Below, one piece after another: positions 12,721-36,172 of a stretch of DNA of 64,000 nucleotides. The stretch comes from Chloranthus sessilifolius (lineage: Eukaryota; Streptophyta; Magnoliopsida; Chloranthales; Chloranthaceae). The position numbers and the translations under genes are program-made. The notes under the pieces were generated by a model. It worked only from the letters and a program-made list of their open reading frames with translations, was not told the DNA's origin and did not search any database. The stretch lies in contig CM037596.1 in the NCBI GenBank assembly GCA_021018995.1, forward strand, positions 14,831,501 through 14,895,500. The letters run 5' to 3'. Numbering within the stretch: the first letter of the stretch is position 1; each line of letters begins with the position of its first letter.

Positions 12721-13754
12721 TTAGAAAATTAGAGTGAGTTAAGTTAGATGAAAGAAGAAGACAGTGTACGTGTGGAGATAGAGAGATGTCCTAGTCATAG
12801 CTTAGTCCTTGGATCCTTTATGTTAAATAAAGAGAGAGAGAGAAAAATTATCTAGTCGGGTTTATAAGTCGGGCTAGATAGGGTCAGATTAGGGCCAGAT
12901 GGTTTGTAATATATATATATTTTTTATGAAATTAATATAAATATAATTCATATAATATGATTCTTAAAACACCGTTTTTTATCGGATGTGAGAAATACCC
13001 TCAATTAGCCGCTTACACAGGTTATATAACTAATTGAAAGGGTTAGAATACCTATAAAAAAAGAAAGGGTTTAGAATAAAAATAAATACATTAAAAAAGT
13101 GATAATGTGATTTATTATTGTGTTATGTTCATTGTATTATGTGACACACATCTATGACCAATCTAAATTCTCAAGTGATAATCAATTATTAGAACATGTC
13201 CTAGCCAAAAGATGATGCTTTTAAGTGGATTTAAACCATTCGACCGGTAAACTTAAATATCAGTCATCATAATTAAGAACAACCATTAGTATTAAAGTGC
13301 ACAGATTGAATGATTCGAATCTCTCAAAAAGTGTGATTTTTGGACTCATAGTCATTCAATTGATGATATATCATTTTGACGGTATGCATTTCCAATATCA
13401 TAAGCTAATAAATAGTCTAAGATCATTTAAACACCATTTGATATTTAAATGACGATGAGGACTTAGGAGAGTCGGACCCACTAAAAAATAATTATCTAAA
13501 TAAAGAAATGACCCGCAACGTGGCCCCACGGGCATGGTGTGGCTTAGGGACAGGCTAGGGCTGAGTATATGTTGGCCCGGCCTAGGGTTGGTCCTTTGCA
13601 GATTGGCCTAGGACCAATCTTGGCGTGGCCCATTGATAGCCTTACCATTTTTTCAAGGGCAAATAAAATTTTGGCCCTGACCCAACCCAACCCGTTATAT
13701 AGCGGTTAAGAATCACCTTTTACCTTGGATGGGGGACTTACCAGGCTTACTAAC
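12721..13754. other. Non-coding DNA, unassigned
   Basis: No gene is recognised. 12827-12842 is a short GA run and 12908-12921 an AT run. 13500-13690 is rich in GGCCC/GGGCC words, and TAGGGCTGAGTAT with an opposed ATAGCCTTA could be the ends of a hAT MITE, but no target duplication was found. Confidence 0.4.
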
Positions 13755-13763
13755 TAATAAAAA

Positions 13764-13872
13764 GGGAATTTTGCACTTTCGGCCCTATACGTTTGCGTAT
13801 TTGCAGAAACGCCCCTATAGTTTCAATCCTTGCATAAATGGTCAGCTCCAAGCCTAGTCGGCTCCACGTCAG
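13764..13872 (+). repeat. MULE left terminal inverted repeat
   Basis: Starts GGGAATTTTGCACTTTCGG. It is matched by the complement of 22004-22112 with only scattered mismatches over about 107 bp, including the shared core TAGTTTCAATCCTTGCATAA and a GCTCCAAG..TAGTCGGCT block. Confidence 0.93.
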
Positions 13873-14048
13873 CAAGGGCCTCTTTTATGCAACATGCGAA
13901 ATTTTGCATCGCCCTTTAACTAAAGTATAAAATCACTTTATTACTTTTCATTCTTTACTTTTACTTTCACTTTTAACTTTTCTGAAAAAACCAAGAGAGC
14001 GGCGGCTTAGCGGCGGCAAAGCGGAAAAAGGTCACAGCAAATTTTCAG

Positions 14049-14413
14049 GTAATTTATTTTTTTACATTTAAATACATTTAGTCATCCGCAATGTTTCCCA
14101 CCTAATCCGCTAACTTATCGATAACTTAATTTGTCGATCGATAACTTAAATTATCGGGCGATAACTTAAATTATCAATCGATAACTTAAATTATTGGGCG
14201 ACAATTTAAATTATCGATCGACAACTTAAATTGTCGACCGATAACTTAATTTGTCGATCGACAAATTAAGTTATCGCCCGATAATTTAAATTATCGATCG
14301 ACAACTTAAGTTATTGATCGACAAATTAAGTTGTCGACCGATAACTTAAATTGTCGGTAGTTTTTTGAAAATGACCTATTTTATTAATTAATTGGGTTTT
14401 ATTTTTATCGCAG
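14049..14413 (+). repeat. Palindromic minisatellite array 1 in 5' intron of Ulp1 gene
   Basis: About twelve 20 bp units at 14106-14356 of the form TTATCGATCGATAACTTAAA. Each alternates a CGNNCG-centred palindrome with a TTAA-centred spacer. The core varies (CGATCG, CGGGCG, CGACCG, CGCCCG). The array fills a likely intron (donor CAG|GTAATTT at 14049, acceptor TTATCGCAG at 14413) between a non-coding first exon and the coding start. The call span is that intron. Confidence 0.85.
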
Positions 14414-15790
14414 TTCCTACTAAGTGATTGAAAATGACCATGACTCTAAAGCCCATCGGGAAATGTTCTGGAGTTGGTGTTAAGAAAATTTACATGCACT
14501 GTAACGAAGAGAGAAAGAAGATACTAGATGATTCAATATTTGGTCATCTATTTAGGATTAATGAGAAATTAGAATTCGTTGGAGACTTGGTTGACGCTAT
14601 TTTAAGTTTTTGGATTAAAGATAATGTTTTCAAGGTAAGGAACACCAATGTACTCCTGCAAGAGATCGATATAGCCTTGATTTTAGGCCTCAACATGGTG
14701 ACGGAACCTGAGTCTGAGAAGGTGGCCGTCCCAGAGGAACAAACTATTCGATACAAATTCTTTCGGGGGAAGCCAGCGAAAAGATCTCGTATTGAAGAAA
14801 TTATTGATAGTGCTGATTTATCGAACGATGATTTTTTGAAACTATCATTATTGTTTTTCGTATATTCTTTTTTACTTCCGAACACATACCAGGAAGTGGA
14901 TACACGGTACTTGGAATTAGTAGATAACATTAAAGAGTTCAACAAGTTACGTGGGGCCTGATAGTTTACAATAATTTATTAGATAGCATATCAAAAGCGA
15001 GCGGCAGAAGGGAAATTGCAAAAAGATCAGAAAATGGGCAATATAACATCTACGGATGCACTATCGCCTTACAGATTTGGGTGTTTGAGCACTTTCCTGG
15101 AGTCGCCACCGCTCCTATTGGGCTCAAAGAACCATTTCCCAGGCTAATGAAATGGGAAGGCCCGAAATTCAGCCATAATTCAAATTTATATCGAGAAAAA
15201 TTTCTTAAGTCTAAAGTTATTTTAGAGCTTGAAACTGTAAAGTACGAATTACAGTATAAATCGATTCGATACTTTTTTATGCGAAGAGAGATAGAAAAAG
15301 AGATGAAAAGGGAGAAGGAACTAACCGAGGAAAGAGAGGAGCCTTACTCCCAAGAAAATATATATGAATATGATGATATCCCAAGTTATGCGACACGTCC
15401 GGAAGAAAGAGGCGAAGAGCCGAAGAGCCGAGATGACGACGATGACGACAATGAGGATGATGATGATGACAGCAACGAAAATGACCATTTTGAGGTCGTT
15501 GTACATCAACATATTGAACCAAAGGGAAAACCGGATATTAGGCCCTAGCCAACAAGAGAACAGTCGGTTAGGCAACCGCATCTAACCAAAGAAGTAACGG
15601 AGCTTAGAAAAGAATGCAATACGCTCCGCATGGCTGTAAAAGAGAAGAAAAAAGAATTTCGACGTGCATTTACACTGCTGAAAGGGCAAGCACTCACCGT
15701 TGAACAACTCCGGAGAGATAAGAAGACCCTAAAAGAAGAAATGAAGCAATACGGAAGGATCTTGATGCGGTCATCTCTCATTTGACAAAG

Positions 15791-16105
15791 GTACTAAACC
15801 AAGCCTTTTTAAATTTAAAAAAAAATTAATTTTTTACATATTAATGCAAAATTAGCTTGTCGGCCGACAATATAAATTATCGTCCGATAATGTAAGTTAT
15901 CGGACGATAATTTACATTAACGATCGATAATGTAAATTATCGATCGATTATTTACATTATCGACCGATAATGTAAATTATCGGCCGACAATGTAAATTAT
16001 CGATCGATTATTTACATTATCGATCGTTAATGTAAATTATCGGCCAATAATGCAGTTAATTTTTTTATTTATTGTAAAATAATGAAAGTTTTTGAAATTA
16101 TGCAG
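15791..16105 (+). repeat. Palindromic minisatellite array 2 in intron of Ulp1 gene
   Basis: About ten 20 bp units at 15855-16050 of the form TTATCGGACGATAATGTAAA, alternating with the inverted spacer ATTTACATT. The CGNNCG core varies (CGGCCG, CGTCCG, CGGACG, CGATCG, CGACCG). The array sits in an intron with donor AAAG|GTACTAA at 15791 and acceptor ATTATGCAG at 16105. The spacer dialect (TGTAAA) differs from array 1 (CTTAAA). The call span is that intron. Confidence 0.85.
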
Positions 16106-16149
16106 GATAATATTCTAACCTCTGTGCTATTTGACACGTTCGTTCCTTC

Positions 16150-16420
16150 CGCCACTCATCCTCAATCCACTGCTCCTCAACCAAGCCATCAATCTACTGC
16201 CCCAAAACCCACTGCTCCTCAACCAAGCATTCAATCCACTGCCCCAAAACCCACTGCTCCTCAACCAAACCATCAATCTATTGCCCTAAAACCCACTGCT
16301 CATCAACCAAGCCATCAATCCACTGCCCGAAAACCCACTGTTGCTCAACCTATCCTTCGATCCACTGCCTCTAAACCTATTGCCCCAAAACCCACTGCTC
16401 CTCAACCTATTAAACAACCC
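16150..16420 (+). repeat. In-frame Ser/Thr-Pro repeat in Ulp1 gene
   Basis: A coding minisatellite: six to seven degenerate units of ~45 bp giving a repeated QSTAPKPTAPQPS-type peptide (15 residues, with variants ending QPI). It predicts a disordered, proline-rich linker ahead of the protease domain. Frame is preserved through the repeat. Confidence 0.85.
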
Positions 16421-17805
16421 TTGGTGGATGTGGGTGATGATGGTGCTCCTCTTACGGAGCCTTCTCGTGAGTCACAGCCGTCATCACTAAAATCAATTAT
16501 AATGAAACTATCAACTGCAAAAAATGAAGGCGAAGGATATGACTTGCGTGCTTGTAAGAAGAGAAAGTCTCCGACCAGTAAAGTAATAATAAAAAAACCA
16601 AGATTGGTTGTGGAGGAGGAGGAGGATGAGCCAAAATCAATGGAGCAAAAATATATGCTCAGTTTTTGGAACCGGCCGGAGAACGAGGACAATGTGATCG
16701 TCAATACTATCATGGGTGTTGAGATCACAATTGCTCTTTTAAAGGTTCTCAAAGGACGCTCGTGGCTCGACAATGAAGTCATCGACGCGTATTCACGAGT
16801 CCTTGAAGTTATAAACGATTCAATGTTTACGGCCAATGCCGAAAAAAGCTGGTTCACTTGTGCGTCTGCCCTGGTAAGGTTTCAACTATTTATTATTTCG
16901 TTTGTTTCTTTTATTTGTCTTTTCAATCACAACTCTTAATTCACTTCTTCTAATTTATTTACTTACTACATTATCCTGTTTCAGACCTTGTTTATGACAG
17001 ACGAGAAAAAATTTGAAAAGTTTATCGACAATGAAGGTATAGAAGTTTCGACTTGATAAGAGGTGCCTATTGTGACGAATGGAAGGTTCGTCACAATTCA
17101 AAGCCGCTGGAACCAGTACTGACAAATAATAACCGCGGAATTCACTCGATTGACTGTGGAACGGTACGCTTTTTAATACTACACTTCGCTTTATTTAACG
17201 TTAACGGCTTTTAAATAAAATTTATTATTTAAAATTTCGGTTCCGTTTATGTGCAGATTTATCTTCCGATGCATAGCTAAAAACATAGCCACTAGGCGTT
17301 AGCTATAATTTCATTAGTTGATCGAGAAATTAAGTTAATAGATCCAGCAGACCGAGAGTGCTAAAAAGGTTTGAAGCGCATAAAAGATGTCTATTGAATC
17401 ACCTTCCGCGCCTTCTTTACACTATCGGTTTGAAGTCAGCTTTCGATCAACAGTGGAAGGTATCGGCGTTCAACAGTGTCGTTCTCTCGATCTAAAGAAA
17501 CGGTTGGGATTGCGGTGTATACGTTTTGAAGTATATAGAATACTTCTCCCAACGGCGGCCTATTGATTTTGAAGAAAAACATATGTAACAATTTAGAGCC
17601 GAAATCGAACATTTAATGTGCACGTTTGAGAAGAAGAGTTAAACTTTCATATCTTTGTAAAATTTTATAGACTTTTGTAAATATTTTTTTTGATAAAATT
17701 GTAAATAATTTATATCCACTTGTATAATTTTCGTTGTTATCAATTTATCGTAATTGTCTAACCATTCCTTATAAATAATTCTTTATCTAATGTTTAGATT
17801 ATACC

Positions 17806-18068
17806 ATAATCGATAAATTAAGTTTGCGGCCACTAAATTATATTAGCATCCGATGACTTAAGTCATCGGACGATATATTAAGTCATCGATCGATGACTTA
17901 AGATATCGGCCGATATCTTAAATCATCGGACGATATCTTAAGTCATCGTCCGATGACTTAAGATATTGGACGATGACTTAAGTCATCGGCCGATATCTTA
18001 AGTAATCGGCCGATATCTTAAGTCATCGGTCGATATCTTAAGATATCGTCCGATGACTTAATATATCG
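17806..18068. repeat. Palindromic minisatellite array 3
   Basis: About eleven 20 bp units such as CTTAAGTCATCGGACGATAT, alternating a CTTAAG palindrome with a CGNNCG-centred palindrome. It lies just past the 3' end of the Ulp1 gene, in the space between the two convergent genes. A third spacer dialect (GACTTAAGTC / ATCTTAAGAT). Confidence 0.85.
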
Positions 18069-18921
18069 TCCATTTGAAATTGTGAAGCTGGATATCTTTG
18101 GTCACAATCTCCTTAATCATCGGCTCTATGCCAAAAACAGCATAACATTTTAAACCTTCCTTAAAAAACGGTTGAACTTCACAATCTCCAAGCCCTCAAT
18201 AAGAGTCAAATATTGGAGAGAATGCTAATCCTGACCAAAACATGATTGCTTCGAGAGAGGAAGGCTCCGTTGATTTACTAATAGATTAGAGGCGAATTTG
18301 GCAACTTCCAATCCTTTTTGAGTTAATGATTTATTAAGCCTAGTAATCTATCTCAATCACAGTTCTAAAAGGAAATTATTAGTCTAATAAAAAAATAAAT
18401 ATTAATCAATTGGCGGCGAAATCGATTAATAAATTCTCACCCCTACAAAGTGGAATAGAAAACGAAGAATCAGAATTTAAAGATGATGATATTGGCAAGG
18501 ATGTTGATCATTTTTTTCTTAAGGTCCAATCTATTGATGTTGAAGGAAAGAAAAAGAGAAAAAAAAATACTCTTCGATAATGGGATCATTTAGAAGCTCG
18601 ATCGCCACCTAGGTCCAAGGTTCGCTCAGACCAACAAGGTCAAATAAATAAATTTATTCCTTTCCCCGATGACTTAAGATATCGGCCAATGACTTACATT
18701 AGCAGACGTAAATTTAAGTTATCGGCCAATATCTTAAGTCAGCGGCCGCTGATTTAATATTAATCTAAAGGCTATGACCGTATTTGTTATATTATAAAAT
18801 AATATGAAATGCTTTAGAAATCTGATCTCAATCTCAAACTTTGAAGTAATATAAGTTAATTTCAAATATTAACAAATTTACATGAGCGACGGTTATGACC
18901 GTACTTGTTACAATTTTTACA
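18069..18921. other. Intergenic space between convergent MULE genes, with array 4
   Basis: No clear gene. 18490-18660 can be read as short peptide pieces but no domain is recognised. 18666-18757 is a short, diverged continuation of the palindromic array (GATGACTTAAGATATCGGCC, CAGCGGCCGCTG). The rest is AT-rich and probably serves as the 3' regions of both genes. Confidence 0.6.
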
Positions 18922-21545
18922 TCATAGTGGTCGAACTTCGCCTTTAGATCTTATTCTCCTTTTCTTCGGACGGCCGACTTGACGTATTTTGTGGGGAGGT
19001 AAAACTTGAAGGTCGTCTCTTTGCGAAGTTCATTGGCGCTTGTCAGCGGTCGGGACAAAGTGCTCTTTATAAGTTTCTCTAAATAAGTTACTGGTAAACC
19101 AGTGTTCACAAAATTGAGGGATCTCTCTTTCTCTGTTTCAGCGCGATAATGCGGCGATCGCATGTGAACATTGTAATCCAAGAATAGCCCAACGTCTCCA
19201 TGTACATGTTCGCGATTCTAGATCGACACTGTGAGTGTAATCACCACGTTTAACTTGAAATATATCACGACCATATGGTATAACATTTTTTCGATGGGCC
19301 CATCCTGAATTTCGTGTTATGTATTTTTCGGCCATCGGTGTTAACACATATGTCATTTTATTTTCTTCCTCCTGATGACGAAGATAAAATTCGGCTACCT
19401 TTGTGCGAATAGTTTCTAACATGCTCATAATCGGTTCCTCTCTGGCTATTTTCAACACACTATTTATGCTTTCAGCTATATTAGTTGTCAACATATCATA
19501 ACGCCTCCCTTGAAAATAAGCGCGCTCCCGGAAATGATCACCAATTTTTTTAATCCATTTTGTACATTCCGGGGGGGCGTCATCTTCTATTTTTCGCATA
19601 ATTCTTTTAAATTTTGCTTCCGAAAATGCACGGGCAGCAACTCAAAAAAGGGGTCTAGAGATTGTATCCTTATATTTATCAAACAGATTTAGAGCTAGGT
19701 GTCGTATACAGTAGTTGTGAAAGGCGTTAGGAAAAACTTTTTCCATAGCTTCCATCCAACCTTTCTGTCTGTCTGATATCAATACAAACTATTCTTTAAA
19801 GTCACCGATTACACGTCTCCCTAATAGATCAAAGAACCATGTCCAATGATCTTCATTTTCTTTCTGTATAATGTCTATAGGGAATAAATGTCTATTCCCG
19901 TCTATCCTCGTAGTTATTAATAACACTCCCTTGTATCGTCCACTCAAATGCGTTCCATCTACCGTAATTATTCTTCGTAAAGTATTACGAAAGCTTCGAA
20001 TGCAAGGTCCGAATGCCACGAAGAATTTCTGAAATGCATTATCAAGCTTGAAACACAATTCGGTCTGTACGTCTGGATCGACCCGCTGTAATTCGGCAAC
20101 ATATGACAGTAACATCTTAAATTGCTCCTTCCAGCTACCTCGGATGTCATTCAATGCCATTTCTTTTCCTCTCCATGCTTTCCAGTAACCTACTGTTATA
20201 CCGTATTTTTTTCAATATAAAAAATTATTGAAGCAGGAGTCTCGTCAAAGCCCTTTAATAGATTATCTCTCATGAATGAAGCTATTCACGATGTCGTACA
20301 TTGGCGATGTCCACTTCCAAAAGCTGGCATTCCGCACGTATGTTCCGGGTGAAAAGTTTTCACAGCAAACGTGTCCACGCCTACTAATTTTGATGCATGT
20401 ATTCGCCAAGCATATCCTACTTCAACACACCTCACCGTAACTCGAAGAGGACTGATTTTTATTGGTTTAATCTGAAAATTATTTGTCATTGCAAATTCTT
20501 TAAGAACTTTTTGAAAGGATTTCTTATTTCTAAATGCCTGACCAATGGTAATTGTTCCCCCTTCATATAGTTCCTTATCGTCTGAATCCATATACTCTCC
20601 TTCCGAGTCATTAAGCTGATAGTCTTCGTCCACCAGAGGTTGATCAATTCCTCTATTAGTATCAACACGCGAAGTGGGAGACGGTGGTGCTTCATTATTT
20701 TCAGGATCACTATCACCGTCATCGACTGGATGGTTATTACATGATTGGGATTGAGCCCGTCGATGTACGCTTGGTTGAAGTGCAGTTGTTTGGATTGATG
20801 TTGGCCGATGCGGGAATGTTTGATGTACGAGAGGCTGTTCTGTTGAAGGCTCGATTATTGTTGGCTCCGAAGCTATTTGTTCGGAAGGCCATTGATATGG
20901 ACTAAGGCCGACTAAAAACGTTTCCCACTAATTTACCGAATCGGAGTTGAACTGAGATGTATCATGCATCAGATTCATTTGATGACAATATCCTTGATCT
21001 TCATCGCCTTCACTCATTAGAATGTTTGAAGAGGGTTGCTCTAGAGGCCTACGGTAGGGGCGAAATCCTATATTCATATTTCTATCATCGTTGACTATCA
21101 TCGGTGCAACAATGTTCTCTTCTTCAAATCGTATTTCTTGATTTTTAATCAAATGTTCTGTTCCCACACCATGATCATCTTCGTTTGTTTCCTGGAACGG
21201 TTGAAATATTTCTAAAGACCGTAAAATTTCTGCTACGATAGTGACTAATGATTTTTCGATATAAATATTTATTACACCATCACCGATATGATATGCTCTG
21301 AATAAGTTTGTAAGATCATCAGAGTCAGACAATTCGGCAAATACAAGCTCATTCCCTATGCGTAATTAAATAGTTAGTGTAATAGAATGTTCTTCCGGTC
21401 GTGTCTGACTGACTTTGTACATTTTCTCTATAAACTCATCAAATGATATGTTCTCCGTAACAGTGACAATCCTCCGATGTCCTCCGTTGTAAGTATTATC
21501 TCCCATGCGGACAAAATCAAAATGGCAAAGAAGGGGAACATCCAT
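18922..21545 (-). pseudogene. mudrA: mudrA-type MULE transposase, decayed
   Basis: The likely start ATG is at 21545-21543, just after a 5' intron. The N-terminal third (to about 20640) is acidic and poorly conserved. 20600-20300 encodes the MuDR DNA-binding region (GQAFRNKKSFQKVLKEFA, then AWRIHASK and FHPEHTCGMP). The MULE catalytic core follows, with DGTHLSGRYKG (first Asp, about 19955) and ISDRQKG (second Asp, about 19780). Then come NIAESINSVLK and a SWIM zinc finger CTWRRWAILGLQCSHAIAAL (about 19190-19140). The C-terminus reads VGRPKKRRIRSKGEV, a GRPKKRR tail seen in this family, ending at a TGA (18922-18924). Stops: one just before FVLISDRQKG, TGA in place of a conserved Trp near 19633, one after the N-terminal acidic part, and one near 20285. 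The region shows a full-length gene inactivated mainly by nonsense changes. Confidence 0.88.
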
Positions 21546-21551
21546 TTCAAC

Positions 21552-21869
21552 CTACAATATTTACAAAATGAAAATTGGTTGTTTAGGGCTGTTTAGCGCT
21601 ACAATATTAAAAAATGAAAACTTTAGGGCTAAAAGTCCATCATAAGAAATCACTCGATATCCTAAGATATCGGGCCGATATCCTGTTACCGGGCCGATAT
21701 CCTAAGATATATGGCCGATGGACTTTTAACCTAAACCATAAATCTAAACCCGTAAAACAAACCTTATCATAAGATATCGATCGATATCTTACATAACTTG
21801 GTCTACTTACAATATTTTGAAAATTTGGGAAATCAATAACTTAAAAAGATAATGTACTCGATATCTTAC
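21552..21869 (-). repeat. Palindromic minisatellite array 5 in mudrA 5' intron
   Basis: On the minus strand a donor CTAG|GTAAGATATCG (21869) and acceptor ATTGTAG (21552) bracket a 318 bp intron just upstream of the mudrA ATG. It contains five to six units of the type CCTAAGATATCGGGCCGATAT (21645-21730 and 21770-21795). The call span is that intron. The array design is the same as in the Ulp1 gene introns. Confidence 0.75.
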
Positions 21870-22003
21870 CTAGCCTGTTGTATTCTCTATGTTATACGAA
21901 CTGTAGTCGAATCTCGAAATCGCTATCCAAGAGAGAAAGAAAGTGTTAAAAAATGTTAGAGAAATTATAGTTTCAATCCTTGCATAGAGAAGCATATATA
22001 TAT

Positions 22004-22112
22004 CTGACGTGAAGCCGACTAGACTTGGAGCTGGCCATTTATGCAAGGATTGAAACTATAGGGCCGTTTCTGCAAATACGCAAACGTATAAGGCCGAAAG
22101 TATAAATTTCCC
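22004..22112 (-). repeat. MULE right terminal inverted repeat
   Basis: Read on the minus strand it starts GGGAAATTTATACTTTCGGC and follows the left terminal repeat base by base with few differences. It is directly followed by the second copy of the 9 bp duplication TAATAAAAA. Confidence 0.93.
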
Positions 22113-22139
22113 TAATAAAAATAAATAGAAGTACTTTTG

Positions 22140-22532
22140 GGGACCCATTACTTCGATACACTTTTTAAGTGATTGCACCGAATTTAAAGAAAGACTTAGT
22201 ATTTAGAGACATGTGATATGTAAAAATGTAATGTGGACCGTCTGATTTGAAGTTTATGATCAATAAATTTCTAATACATGAAATTGAAGCAAAACACAAT
22301 ACTTGTCATATGATTTATTGTAGTTTGAGTTATATAATAACCTTTGACTCTATTTAATTAAATGATAAAAATTATATTTTGTTTTAATCTTTTGTAATTA
22401 ATATCTTTAAATCACCGCCTTCCAATTAAAAGGCGAAGGCGGTGTTTTCATAGAGTAGAGGTCCTAAACTTATAAGTCTTTCTTTTAAACTCGGTGCAAT
22501 CACTTGAATAATGTCTGCAAGTGATGGCTCCC
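22140..22532. mobile_element. MITE in the EMB2654 promoter
   Basis: A ~393 bp element with inverted ends. The left end reads GGGGACCCATTACTT, then AAGTGATTGCACCGAATTT and AAAGAAAGACTTA. The right end is the complement of GGGAGCCATCACTTGC plus the same AAGTGATTGCACCGAGTTT block. It shares ends with the larger element at 37667-38824. The flanks (TACTTTT / TATTTTC) may be a degraded duplication. It starts 18 bp after the MULE duplication and ends 10 bp before the TATA box. Confidence 0.8.
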
Positions 22533-22542
22533 TATTTTCAGG

Positions 22543-22549
22543 TATAAAA
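22543..22549 (+). promoter_or_regulatory. TATA box of EMB2654-like gene
   Basis: TATAAAA lies 52 bp upstream of the start codon. That would place transcription start near 22570-22580 and give a 5' leader of only about 25-30 nt. It is the only good TATA match between the MITE and the ATG. Confidence 0.7.
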
Positions 22550-22600
22550 CAGAAAAGTAACAGAGGAGGAGGTCACTGAGTCTCAAACTAGAGCTTACAG

Positions 22601-22990
22601 ATGGCCACCATCCTACCTCTAAACCCAAACCCACACTTCTACACTCAAAACGAAACCAATTTAACGACGAAGAACAAGAAGAAGAAGATCAGAAAAACCA
22701 AAACCCTAGTTTCCTGCAACGGCAGCAATGTCGAGAAGACAACAAAAATTGCTTCTGTGGATTACGATAAGGGCAAACACCAAGTCGAAATTCAAGTAAG
22801 CGGTCTCGGAAAAGACGATCTCCCGAAGCGGTTTCGATTACGAGTCGAAGGCGATTCGAGGCAAAGAGATTGGAAGATCTCTGAGGTCGTCGAGAGGATT
22901 CTGAAACTTAATCACTGGGGAGACATTGCAGGCGTTCTTAATCGTTGGGCTGGTCGGTTTTCGAGGAAGAATTTCCCCATTCTTATTCGG
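22601..22990 (+). CDS. EMB2654: EMB2654-like chloroplast PPR protein, exon 1
   Basis: The host gene. The exon gives 130 codons in one frame from ATG 22601 (context CAGATGGCC) to the donor CGG|GTACATT. The first ~50 residues are rich in Asn, Thr, Lys and Ser, like a plastid transit peptide. Then come DYDKGKHQVEIQVSGLGKDD, LPKRFRLRVEGDSRQRDW and ILKLNHWGDI, then NRWAGRFSRKNFPILIR. This succession is the conserved N-terminal region of EMB2654 (At2g41720 type), a P-class PPR protein. In Arabidopsis that protein is essential for embryo development and is needed for trans-splicing of plastid rps12. Recognition is from memory of the family, not a search. The first intron is phase 0, and the next exon is 21.8 kb away at 44808. 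TATA box at 22543. The gene looks intact here. Confidence 0.88.
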
Positions 22991-24058
22991 GTACATTCGA
23001 AATTTTGGTTTTTGTTCTTTTTTTTAAAATTCCTTTTTTCGAAGCCTGTTTTGAATTTCTGCCACTTTTCTGTTTGAATTTACTCCAAATTGCAATTTAA
23101 TTGGTTGTTTATATGCTAATAAGCCCTGTTTGGATGCTGGTTTTTTAATTGGTGCCACTGCTCTGTTTGGATTCCCGCCAGAAAACAATGTAATCAGTCG
23201 TTTAATTTGTATTTCCGTCGCAAGATTGTAATAAAGCATTGTTTGGATGCCCATTGATTGGTGAATGGGTCGGAAATTGGATATGATCCCAATTACCAGT
23301 GTGATGATTTTAGCTCAGAACCATTTTTCATCTTATTTACGAATTGGGTTGTGGTGAATTGTGAACTGTTATTTGACAATTGTGCGGGTGTCCAAGCTAC
23401 AATTCGATTGGTCGATTTTGCTTGTGTTTCTTGCTCCAAAATACTAATAAAGCCCTGCTTGAATGCCCACCGATTTGAGGATGGGGTGGTCATTTGATAT
23501 GGTTTTCTGCCACAGATTGCCAGTGTGATAATGATTAAATCACAATTCAATTGTTTGTTTCCCCAATATTTTTCATTTCTCTCAAAATTTTATATTTTTT
23601 TATTACTATGTTTTTCTATTTTATATTTTCCCAAGTTTCCTCTTCTTATTAAGAACCAGGTGACTGAGTTAAACAGTCGTTTGAATTGCACATATGGCAT
23701 GGACATTGTAATGCCCCCCGTATTTCCTTGATTCATAGTTATCAGGTTCTCTCTTAATCTTCGTGAATTATGGATTCATCTATCCAATTAGGTAGCTACT
23801 ATGAGGACCAGTTGGATATCGTATGCTCAAAATTGTGGTTTTGAAAGTTGTAAATTTATTAGAACTATGATTCTGAATATCTGAAATTTTCTTACCGTAT
23901 GGTTGGTCTATAAAACTCATGATCAATTTAAAGTGGTCGGTAAGTGAAGGGTAAGCGAGCCATTTTTTCTTAGGCTTGAAATCTAGATTCGGGTCTGACC
24001 AAAAAATTGGGCTTGACATCCTGTTTATGCTGAAATGAGTTGGGACTGATGGGCATGG
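22991..24058. other. 5' part of intron 1, no element delimited
   Basis: AT-rich, T-rich intron sequence with no recognisable transposon ends. Several GTTTGGATGC words recur (23128, 23166, 23240). No coding sequence of note. Confidence 0.5.
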
Positions 24059-35763: not shown

Positions 35764-36172
35764 CATCGCCATTGCGAGACTATTTATTAATTTTTTGAAA
35801 AATAATTTTATCTATTATAATTAGATGTATTCTTTTTTATTTTTTATTTATTTATATTTTTTATATAGGAAGAAAAACATATATATAAGAAGAAAAAAAT
35901 TCAACTACTAAAGCTTCATACTTTGATTTTAATTTTGAGGATTTCATGTTTTAGGCATAAACAAACATCAATAAGTACAAAATCAAATATGGAACATCAA
36001 CAAATTTGCAACGTGGTAAGTATAAAAAAATTAATATGAAATATCAACAAATATAGAATATTGAAAAATATGAAATATCAAGTACACATACAGCAGTGTC
36101 GCCAATGCTGAGGTTCCGTCGACCGGTAGCCTGCTGAGCTGTCGTTGACGCTGATGTTGGTCGCTACTGTGA

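Follow-up and report, generated by a model that had tools for sequence, protein, structure and literature searches.

Palindromic tandem arrays in putative introns and intergenic space of a Mutator-like element of Chloranthus sessilifolius, candidate targets of an element-encoded DUF1985-Ulp1 protein

The window analysed here, a stretch of 64,000 nucleotides (nt) of the Chloranthus sessilifolius genome (GCA_021018995.1, CM037596.1:14,831,501-14,895,500, forward strand), contains an 8.35-kb Mutator-like element (MULE) at positions 13764-22112, whose non-coding DNA holds five short tandem arrays. The element is of the terminal-inverted-repeat (TIR) type: it is bounded by TIRs of 109 bp and by a perfect 9-bp target-site duplication (TSD), and its minus-strand gene, mudrA, encodes a MURA-type transposase (PF03108, 41.3 bits against a cut-off of 25; PF10551, 27.8 bits against 27.6) with DBD_Tnp_Mut, MULE and SWIM domains above or near their Pfam cut-offs and a weak PB1 match. 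The convergent plus-strand gene combines DUF1985 with an Ulp1/C48 peptidase part and appears, from its domain matches, to have the architecture of the VANC/Kaonashi proteins. An earlier reading of the same DNA, made from the letters alone and called here the sequence-only reading, had missed the identity of this gene, which is the key to interpreting the arrays. Since stop codons or frame changes break both genes, the window copy is decayed and probably does not produce the DUF1985-Ulp1 protein.

Arrays 1-3 are built from 10-bp half-sites of alternating orientation with the outline TTAARWYATCG, and each 20 bp holds one dyad at TTAA and one at CGNNCG, save where half-sites are mutated; pooled over four copies, the half-sites are spaced 8 and 12 bp apart. 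The existence of palindromic arrays, claimed in the sequence-only reading, is borne out by Tandem Repeats Finder (TRF) and by a combined scan of the 64 kb for 20-bp tandem repeats with palindromy, which in its strict form returns arrays 1-3 alone, and no region in 20 local dinucleotide shuffles. The loose form adds array 4 and a region at 35801-35910 (20 shuffles together give two regions), and array 5 is missed by both forms. The single design of period 20 proposed for all five arrays stands for arrays 1-3 and fails for array 4, which is degenerate, and array 5, which has a period of 21 and a different spacer. The CG core had been described as varying between units; it is the CG dinucleotides that are stable, and the NN between them and the bases between TTAA and TCG that vary, invariance at the several positions fixed by our half-site variant pattern being by construction.

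As the sequence-only reading had it, three arrays (1, 2 and 5) lie in introns, which are putative and read by eye as GT..AG, and two (3 and 4) lie in the gap between the convergent genes. It was also right that exons and terminal repeats are avoided: the short motifs of these arrays are concentrated in non-coding DNA, with 64 of the element's 66 matches to the pattern TA[AC][AGT][AT][TCA][AG]TCG falling in arrays, one in 5309 bp of exon, one at 21859 and none in the TIRs (exon limits here, and in the copy, substitution-rate and CpG analyses below, are estimates). As controls, the same pattern occurs three times in the rest of the window (55.5 kb) and 26 times in 243.5 kb of other loci of the genome (L009-L035).

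The plus-strand gene runs from DUF1985 through a plant-mobile-domain-like stretch and a proline-rich repeat exon to Ulp1/C48 at its end (Table 1). The DUF1985 match, though under the Pfam cut-off, is backed by 37% identity over 178 amino acids (E 9.5e-26) to a protein of a second locus, described below, that scores above it. A C48 catalytic domain, as in the KIU/Kaonashi genes, is present: a 30-residue piece that includes the DCG motif matches PF02902 above its cut-off (E 2.6e-6, 27.9 bits against 20.7) as well as SENP1/2 and Ulp1 chains, and two further pieces of the C48 part were assigned to no family in the domain search. Ratios of nonsynonymous to synonymous substitution rates (dN/dS) between copies of the element are 0.2-0.6 for the C48 and plant-mobile-domain-like exons. 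A structure model of the DUF1985 exon, built with four sequences, has a mean pLDDT of 35.4; the best PDB match of the single sequence had an E value of 0.12, the profile matched nothing in PDB, and a homologue search of a large protein set gave 59 candidates, none at E <= 0.001. The minisatellite in the linker exon encodes a proline/threonine-rich peptide, and the length of this exon differs across copies (772, 743, 706 and 700 bp), as reported for the variable regions of VANC proteins.

Table 1. Features of the element, in window coordinates
Feature	Position	Strand	Basis and remarks
Left TSD	13755..13763		9 bp, TAATAAAAA, identical to 22113-22121
Left TIR	13764..13872	+	Inverted-repeat search (110-nt arms, 93% complementary); ends refined by copy comparison
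Putative 5' untranslated-region intron, plus-strand gene	14049..14413	+	GT..AG by eye; contains array 1
Array 1	14117..14356		TRF, 12.0 units of 20 bp; half-sites TTAA[A/G/T]TT[A/G]TCG
DUF1985 exon, VANC-like gene	14433..14958	+	PF09331, E 4.6e-5, 23.9 bits, cut-off 35.1; frame 14428-14958 searched
Plant-mobile-domain-like open stretch	14934..15545	+	Other reading frame; PF10536, E 7e-5, 22.6 bits, cut-off 34.9
Putative intron with array 2	15791..16105	+	GT..AG by eye
Array 2	15860..16052		TRF, 9.6 units of 20 bp; half-sites GTAAATTATCG / TTACATTATCG
42-bp coding minisatellite (tandem peptide repeat), linker exon	16163..16420	+	TRF; open frame 16031-16939
Ulp1/C48 peptidase part	17256..17640	+	Stop codons inside; DCG motif in 17496-17585
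Array 3	17806..18072 (TRF core 17851-18061)		TRF, 9.9 units of 20 bp at 17857-18054; half-sites TTAAGTCATCG / TTAAGATATCG
Array 4	18666..18757		TRF, weak 40-bp array, 2.3 units, 69% matches; degenerate
mudrA-type transposase gene	18951..21551	-	PB1-like, DBD_Tnp_Mut, MULE and SWIM matches; estimated limits; stop codons inside
Putative 5' intron of mudrA	21552..21869	-	GT..AG by eye; contains array 5 and a single dyad, 21771-21790
Array 5	21655..21719		TRF, 3.2 units of 21 bp
Right TIR	22004..22112	-	Inverted-repeat search and copy comparison
Right TSD	22113..22121		9 bp, TAATAAAAA, perfect

The genome (2.17 Gb in 32 contigs) was searched for copies and for MULE domains. For array 1, 40 places were scored among 1910 candidates, and for array 3, 40 among 1236, so that the copy number is a lower bound. 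Eight places of array 1, the window included, are paired with one of array 3 on the same contig, all 3.57-3.85 kb apart, and the 40 + 40 scored places contain no other pair within 30 kb. Four further copies were compared, three (E36, E37 and E38) covered over most of the element and one (E39) partly, ending before array 3; the right half of the E38 alignment and the E38 mudrA dN/dS values are misaligned and are excluded from our conclusions. The sequence-only reading had proposed that further copies should keep the arrays in position and vary in unit number, and this is what arrays 1-3 do: they occupy corresponding places in E36, E37 and E38, as do arrays 1-2 in E39, these copies being 86-92% identical to that in the window. 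Array 1 has 12.0, 11.9, 12.0, 13.9 and 17.0 TRF units in the window, E36, E37, E38 and E39, array 3 has 9.9, 6.9, 17.1 and 12.9 in the first four, and array 2 spans 193, 174, 93, 178 and 116 bp in all five; E37 and E38 have no array 4. Motif variants in array 1 also turn over together between copies: the half-site TTAATTTGTCG accounts for 4 of 22 in the window and 4 of 21 in E36, and for none of 24 in E37 or 23 in E38. E37 has a perfect 9-bp TSD of its own, consistent with arrays that travel with the element; the TSD of E36 is imperfect, and the right end of E38 was not found. By tblastn, the DUF1985 exon is present in all four copies and the C48 piece in all three long ones.

A second DUF1985 gene was found among the MULE-domain places of the genome, of which 20 of 150 were fetched, most, though not all, of them the highest in the list. 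At this locus (L029+L022, C4:11587270-11595560, extended leftward) the DUF1985 protein scores 38.6 bits with PF09331, and the gene lies near a FAR1-type transposase. GAAGCG/CGCTTC repeats with a period of 21-22 bp (TRF) flank the DUF1985 exon on both sides and occur again beyond the transposase; the TRF listing of the locus includes no array of the window's kind, and no TIRs were found there. Gene, transposase and arrays may belong to one element, for which the locus is a candidate. GAAGCG clusters, with 10-20 sites in the densest kb, are present in 7 of the 20 loci, and the FAR1-type transposases of the other six are 79.6-84.1% identical to that of L029+L022; the remaining 13 loci contain 20 GAAGCG/CGCTTC sites in 128.7 kb, and tblastn detects no DUF1985 in any of these loci. 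With the seven cluster-bearing loci taken together, sites of the same orientation are most commonly 22 bp apart (32 pairs; 21 bp, 9 pairs), facing sites 10 bp (14 pairs) and back-to-back sites 12 bp (22 pairs). Two of the loci in which no DUF1985 was detected, L034+L020 and L035+L025, have 61 and 75 such sites over about 13 kb around their FAR1-type transposases. Irregular clusters of CGATTAATCG / CGATCGATCG palindromes, with an observed/expected CpG ratio of 3.7-4.5, were also seen near FAR1-type MULEs (L027:560-1160 and L024:8290-8420); as further examples these CGATNATCG palindrome clusters were rejected, their spacing being irregular and no DUF1985 having been found alongside.

Because the element matches VANC systems in its genes, in where its arrays lie and how they change, and in the coding repeat, we hypothesize that each array is a cluster of sites bound by the DUF1985-Ulp1 protein of its own element family, an anti-silencing factor of the VANC/Kaonashi type, and we regard this as probable. 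From the observed arrays, with their geometry, position and copy-number behaviour, from the DUF1985 and C48 matches and from the second DUF1985 locus, we infer binding, dimerisation, demethylation and specificity of the protein. Since neighbouring half-sites of 10 bp face one another and recur at intervals of two DNA turns, the protein would probably bind them as dimers or in chains, an arrangement that would set the dimers on the same side of the helix. The protein would thereby accumulate in each gene's 5' intron and in the intergenic gap, where it may counter host DNA methylation across the element and allow both genes to be expressed. Arrays that expand, contract and change motif together would mean that each element family lifts silencing from itself but not from other parts of the genome.

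A more particular form of this mechanism, which we put forward with considerable doubt, has facing dimers on half-sites two helical turns apart whose binding may be sensitive to methylation, since every half-site of both unrelated motif families has a CpG. That would make the arrays a bistable switch that recruits the factor and stays open when unmethylated and excludes it when methylated, and two motif families with related DUF1985 genes in one genome would have reached the same build from unrelated sequences. The odds of this form are slightly lowered by the pooled GAAGCG sites, whose spacing does not alternate strictly.

Several observations weigh against the anti-silencing interpretation. 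The copy comparison is not blind, because E36-E39 were picked through their match to array 1, and array 5 is retained in E36, shortened in E37 and unaligned in E38. The DUF1985 of the window family scores 23.9, 21.0 and 21.2 bits, all under the cut-off of 35.1, and DUF287, which is drawn in VANC proteins but may not occur in all of them, has no match with E <= 1 in any open piece of the plus-strand gene. Constraint is not clear for DUF1985 and mudrA, since dN/dS is 0.8-1.5 for the DUF1985 exon and 0.4-1.45 for mudrA (misaligned E38 half excluded). The DUF1985 values come near or exceed 1 because dS is low, 0.03-0.06 in this exon (window 14433-14930 and copies) against 0.04-0.23 in the remaining exons; the counts being small, no positive selection is claimed. 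CpG sites are kept at 0.86-0.89 in the arrays against 0.70-0.84 elsewhere, a difference without significance (kept against TG/CA, Fisher p 0.23-0.34), and CpG preservation was accordingly rejected as a sign of hypomethylation. A column-permutation test gave no significant match to known VANC motifs: AGTTGTCG agrees with the VANC6 motif AGTTGTCC at 7 of 8 positions, yet 36 of 300 column-permuted arrays equal it, and the resemblance was discarded as evidence; either VANC6 type is matched by 78 of 300 permuted arrays, and VANC21 by 226-299 of 300. Among the pooled GAAGCG sites, 10 same-orientation pairs at 10 bp and 10 back-to-back pairs at 22 bp make the alternation less than strict. The link between arrays and DUF1985 is weakened because DUF1985 was detected in only one of the seven GAAGCG loci, in stretches of 15.5-18.4 kb and with a domain scan covering 67 of 146 open reading frames of at least 95 amino acids; the other six may be non-autonomous, decayed or too diverged. 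Finally, VANC21 sites have a single orientation (accessible part of PMC5735166), whereas the half-sites of the window alternate, though VANC21 may not define all VANC targets.

Much of the array behaviour would also be expected of neutral minisatellites, slippage-prone repeats that are carried along by the element and survive where selection is weak, in introns and gaps: unit number differs between copies, exons are almost without half-sites, and CpG decay does not separate arrays from the rest significantly. We nevertheless find this explanation unlikely, as three arrays of one element are built alike, from one class of half-site alternating with a period of 20 bp, the GAAGCG loci show comparable two-turn spacing in unrelated sequence, and array positions are retained in the copies. 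Mutator transposases bind TIR sequence, and array 1 begins about 350 bp inside the left end of the element, both of which would suit binding sites or transposition enhancers for the mudrA transposase; such a role is quite improbable given that the TIRs are without half-sites, that arrays 2-4 are interior, and that the second DUF1985 locus has a FAR1-type transposase yet arrays of the same general build.

We think it very improbable that the arrays serve as hairpin transcripts feeding small-RNA production or shaping splicing. Arrays 1 and 3 do fold far beyond shuffles (z -17.7 and -16.9), and targets of RNA-directed DNA methylation in Arabidopsis overlap those of VANC1 and VANC6, those of VANC21 less obviously (accessible part of PMC10398659); palindromy alone yields a stable fold, however, an element would be harmed by a silencing trigger of its own making, and no Rfam family reaches threshold within 13000-23000. 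Rather than being what the arrays are for, RNA hairpins may be a cost that comes with them.

Should the anti-silencing interpretation be true, sequence-specific anti-silencing of the VANDAL type would extend to TIR-type MULEs of another plant genome, one in which array 1 alone scored at 40 or more places (40 of the 1910 candidates having been scored). The target code would be readable from sequence, as non-coding, helically spaced arrays beside a DUF1985 gene, and two motif families in one genome would allow a direct test of the coevolution of protein and target. Palindromic sites bearing CpG would also offer compact tools to direct demethylation. VANC proteins of eudicots are said to gain and lose DUF1985, DUF287 and Ulp1 (Sasaki et al., EMBO J, 2022), and their specificity is reportedly set by motif sequence, density and helical periodicity; the same work may already include palindromic targets.

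The nearest known systems are VANDAL21 (Hiun)/VANC21 and VANDAL6/VANC6 of Arabidopsis (Hosaka et al. 2017, PMC5735166, the accessible part of which is the source of what follows). VANCs are DUF1985 proteins, with DUF287 shown in the legend to Fig. 5. They bind short arrayed motifs within the VANDAL family to which they belong, in introns and in intergenic and terminal non-coding sequence, and cause DNA methylation to be lost there; the motifs differ from family to family, repeats are gained and lost between copies while units diverge together, and tandem peptide motifs are frequent in the variable regions of the proteins. The window element resembles them in its DUF1985 gene, in motif arrays within putative introns and other non-coding DNA, in variable unit numbers with units diverging together, and in a tandem peptide repeat in the protein; it differs in its 109-bp TIRs, in its motif, and in palindromic, alternating half-sites that each have a CpG. 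The statement in the sequence-only reading that no described MULE has such a layout thus gives way to these VANDALs, with their intron and intergenic motif arrays bound by VANC (PMC5735166); its interpretation is supported in part, the tests of position, unit number and exon avoidance having come out in its favour, and the roles that it listed (transposase binding, small RNA, splicing, recombination) had omitted anti-silencing of the VANC type.

The C48 gene opposite to the transposase is shared with KI-MULE/KIU and other ULP-bearing MULEs of grapevine, melon and rice (accessible parts of PMC13317346 and PMC2528002), and some VANDALs have VANC genes with an Ulp1 domain (KIU) that recognise non-coding motifs (PMC13317346, a 2026 review). 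Unlike the window element, KI-MULEs are described in these sources as non-TIR, and their accessible text mentions no arrays (PMC2528002 has neither 'tandem' nor 'minisatellite'). In our literature search, which covered subscription papers incompletely, none of the titles listed dealt with palindromic arrays inside the introns of MULEs. The trait that remains unusual is that the arrays are palindromic, with alternating half-sites that bear a CpG, and what appears to be new here is a variant of the known systems: a TIR-type MULE with palindromic, CpG-bearing candidate target arrays, and two motif families in one genome.

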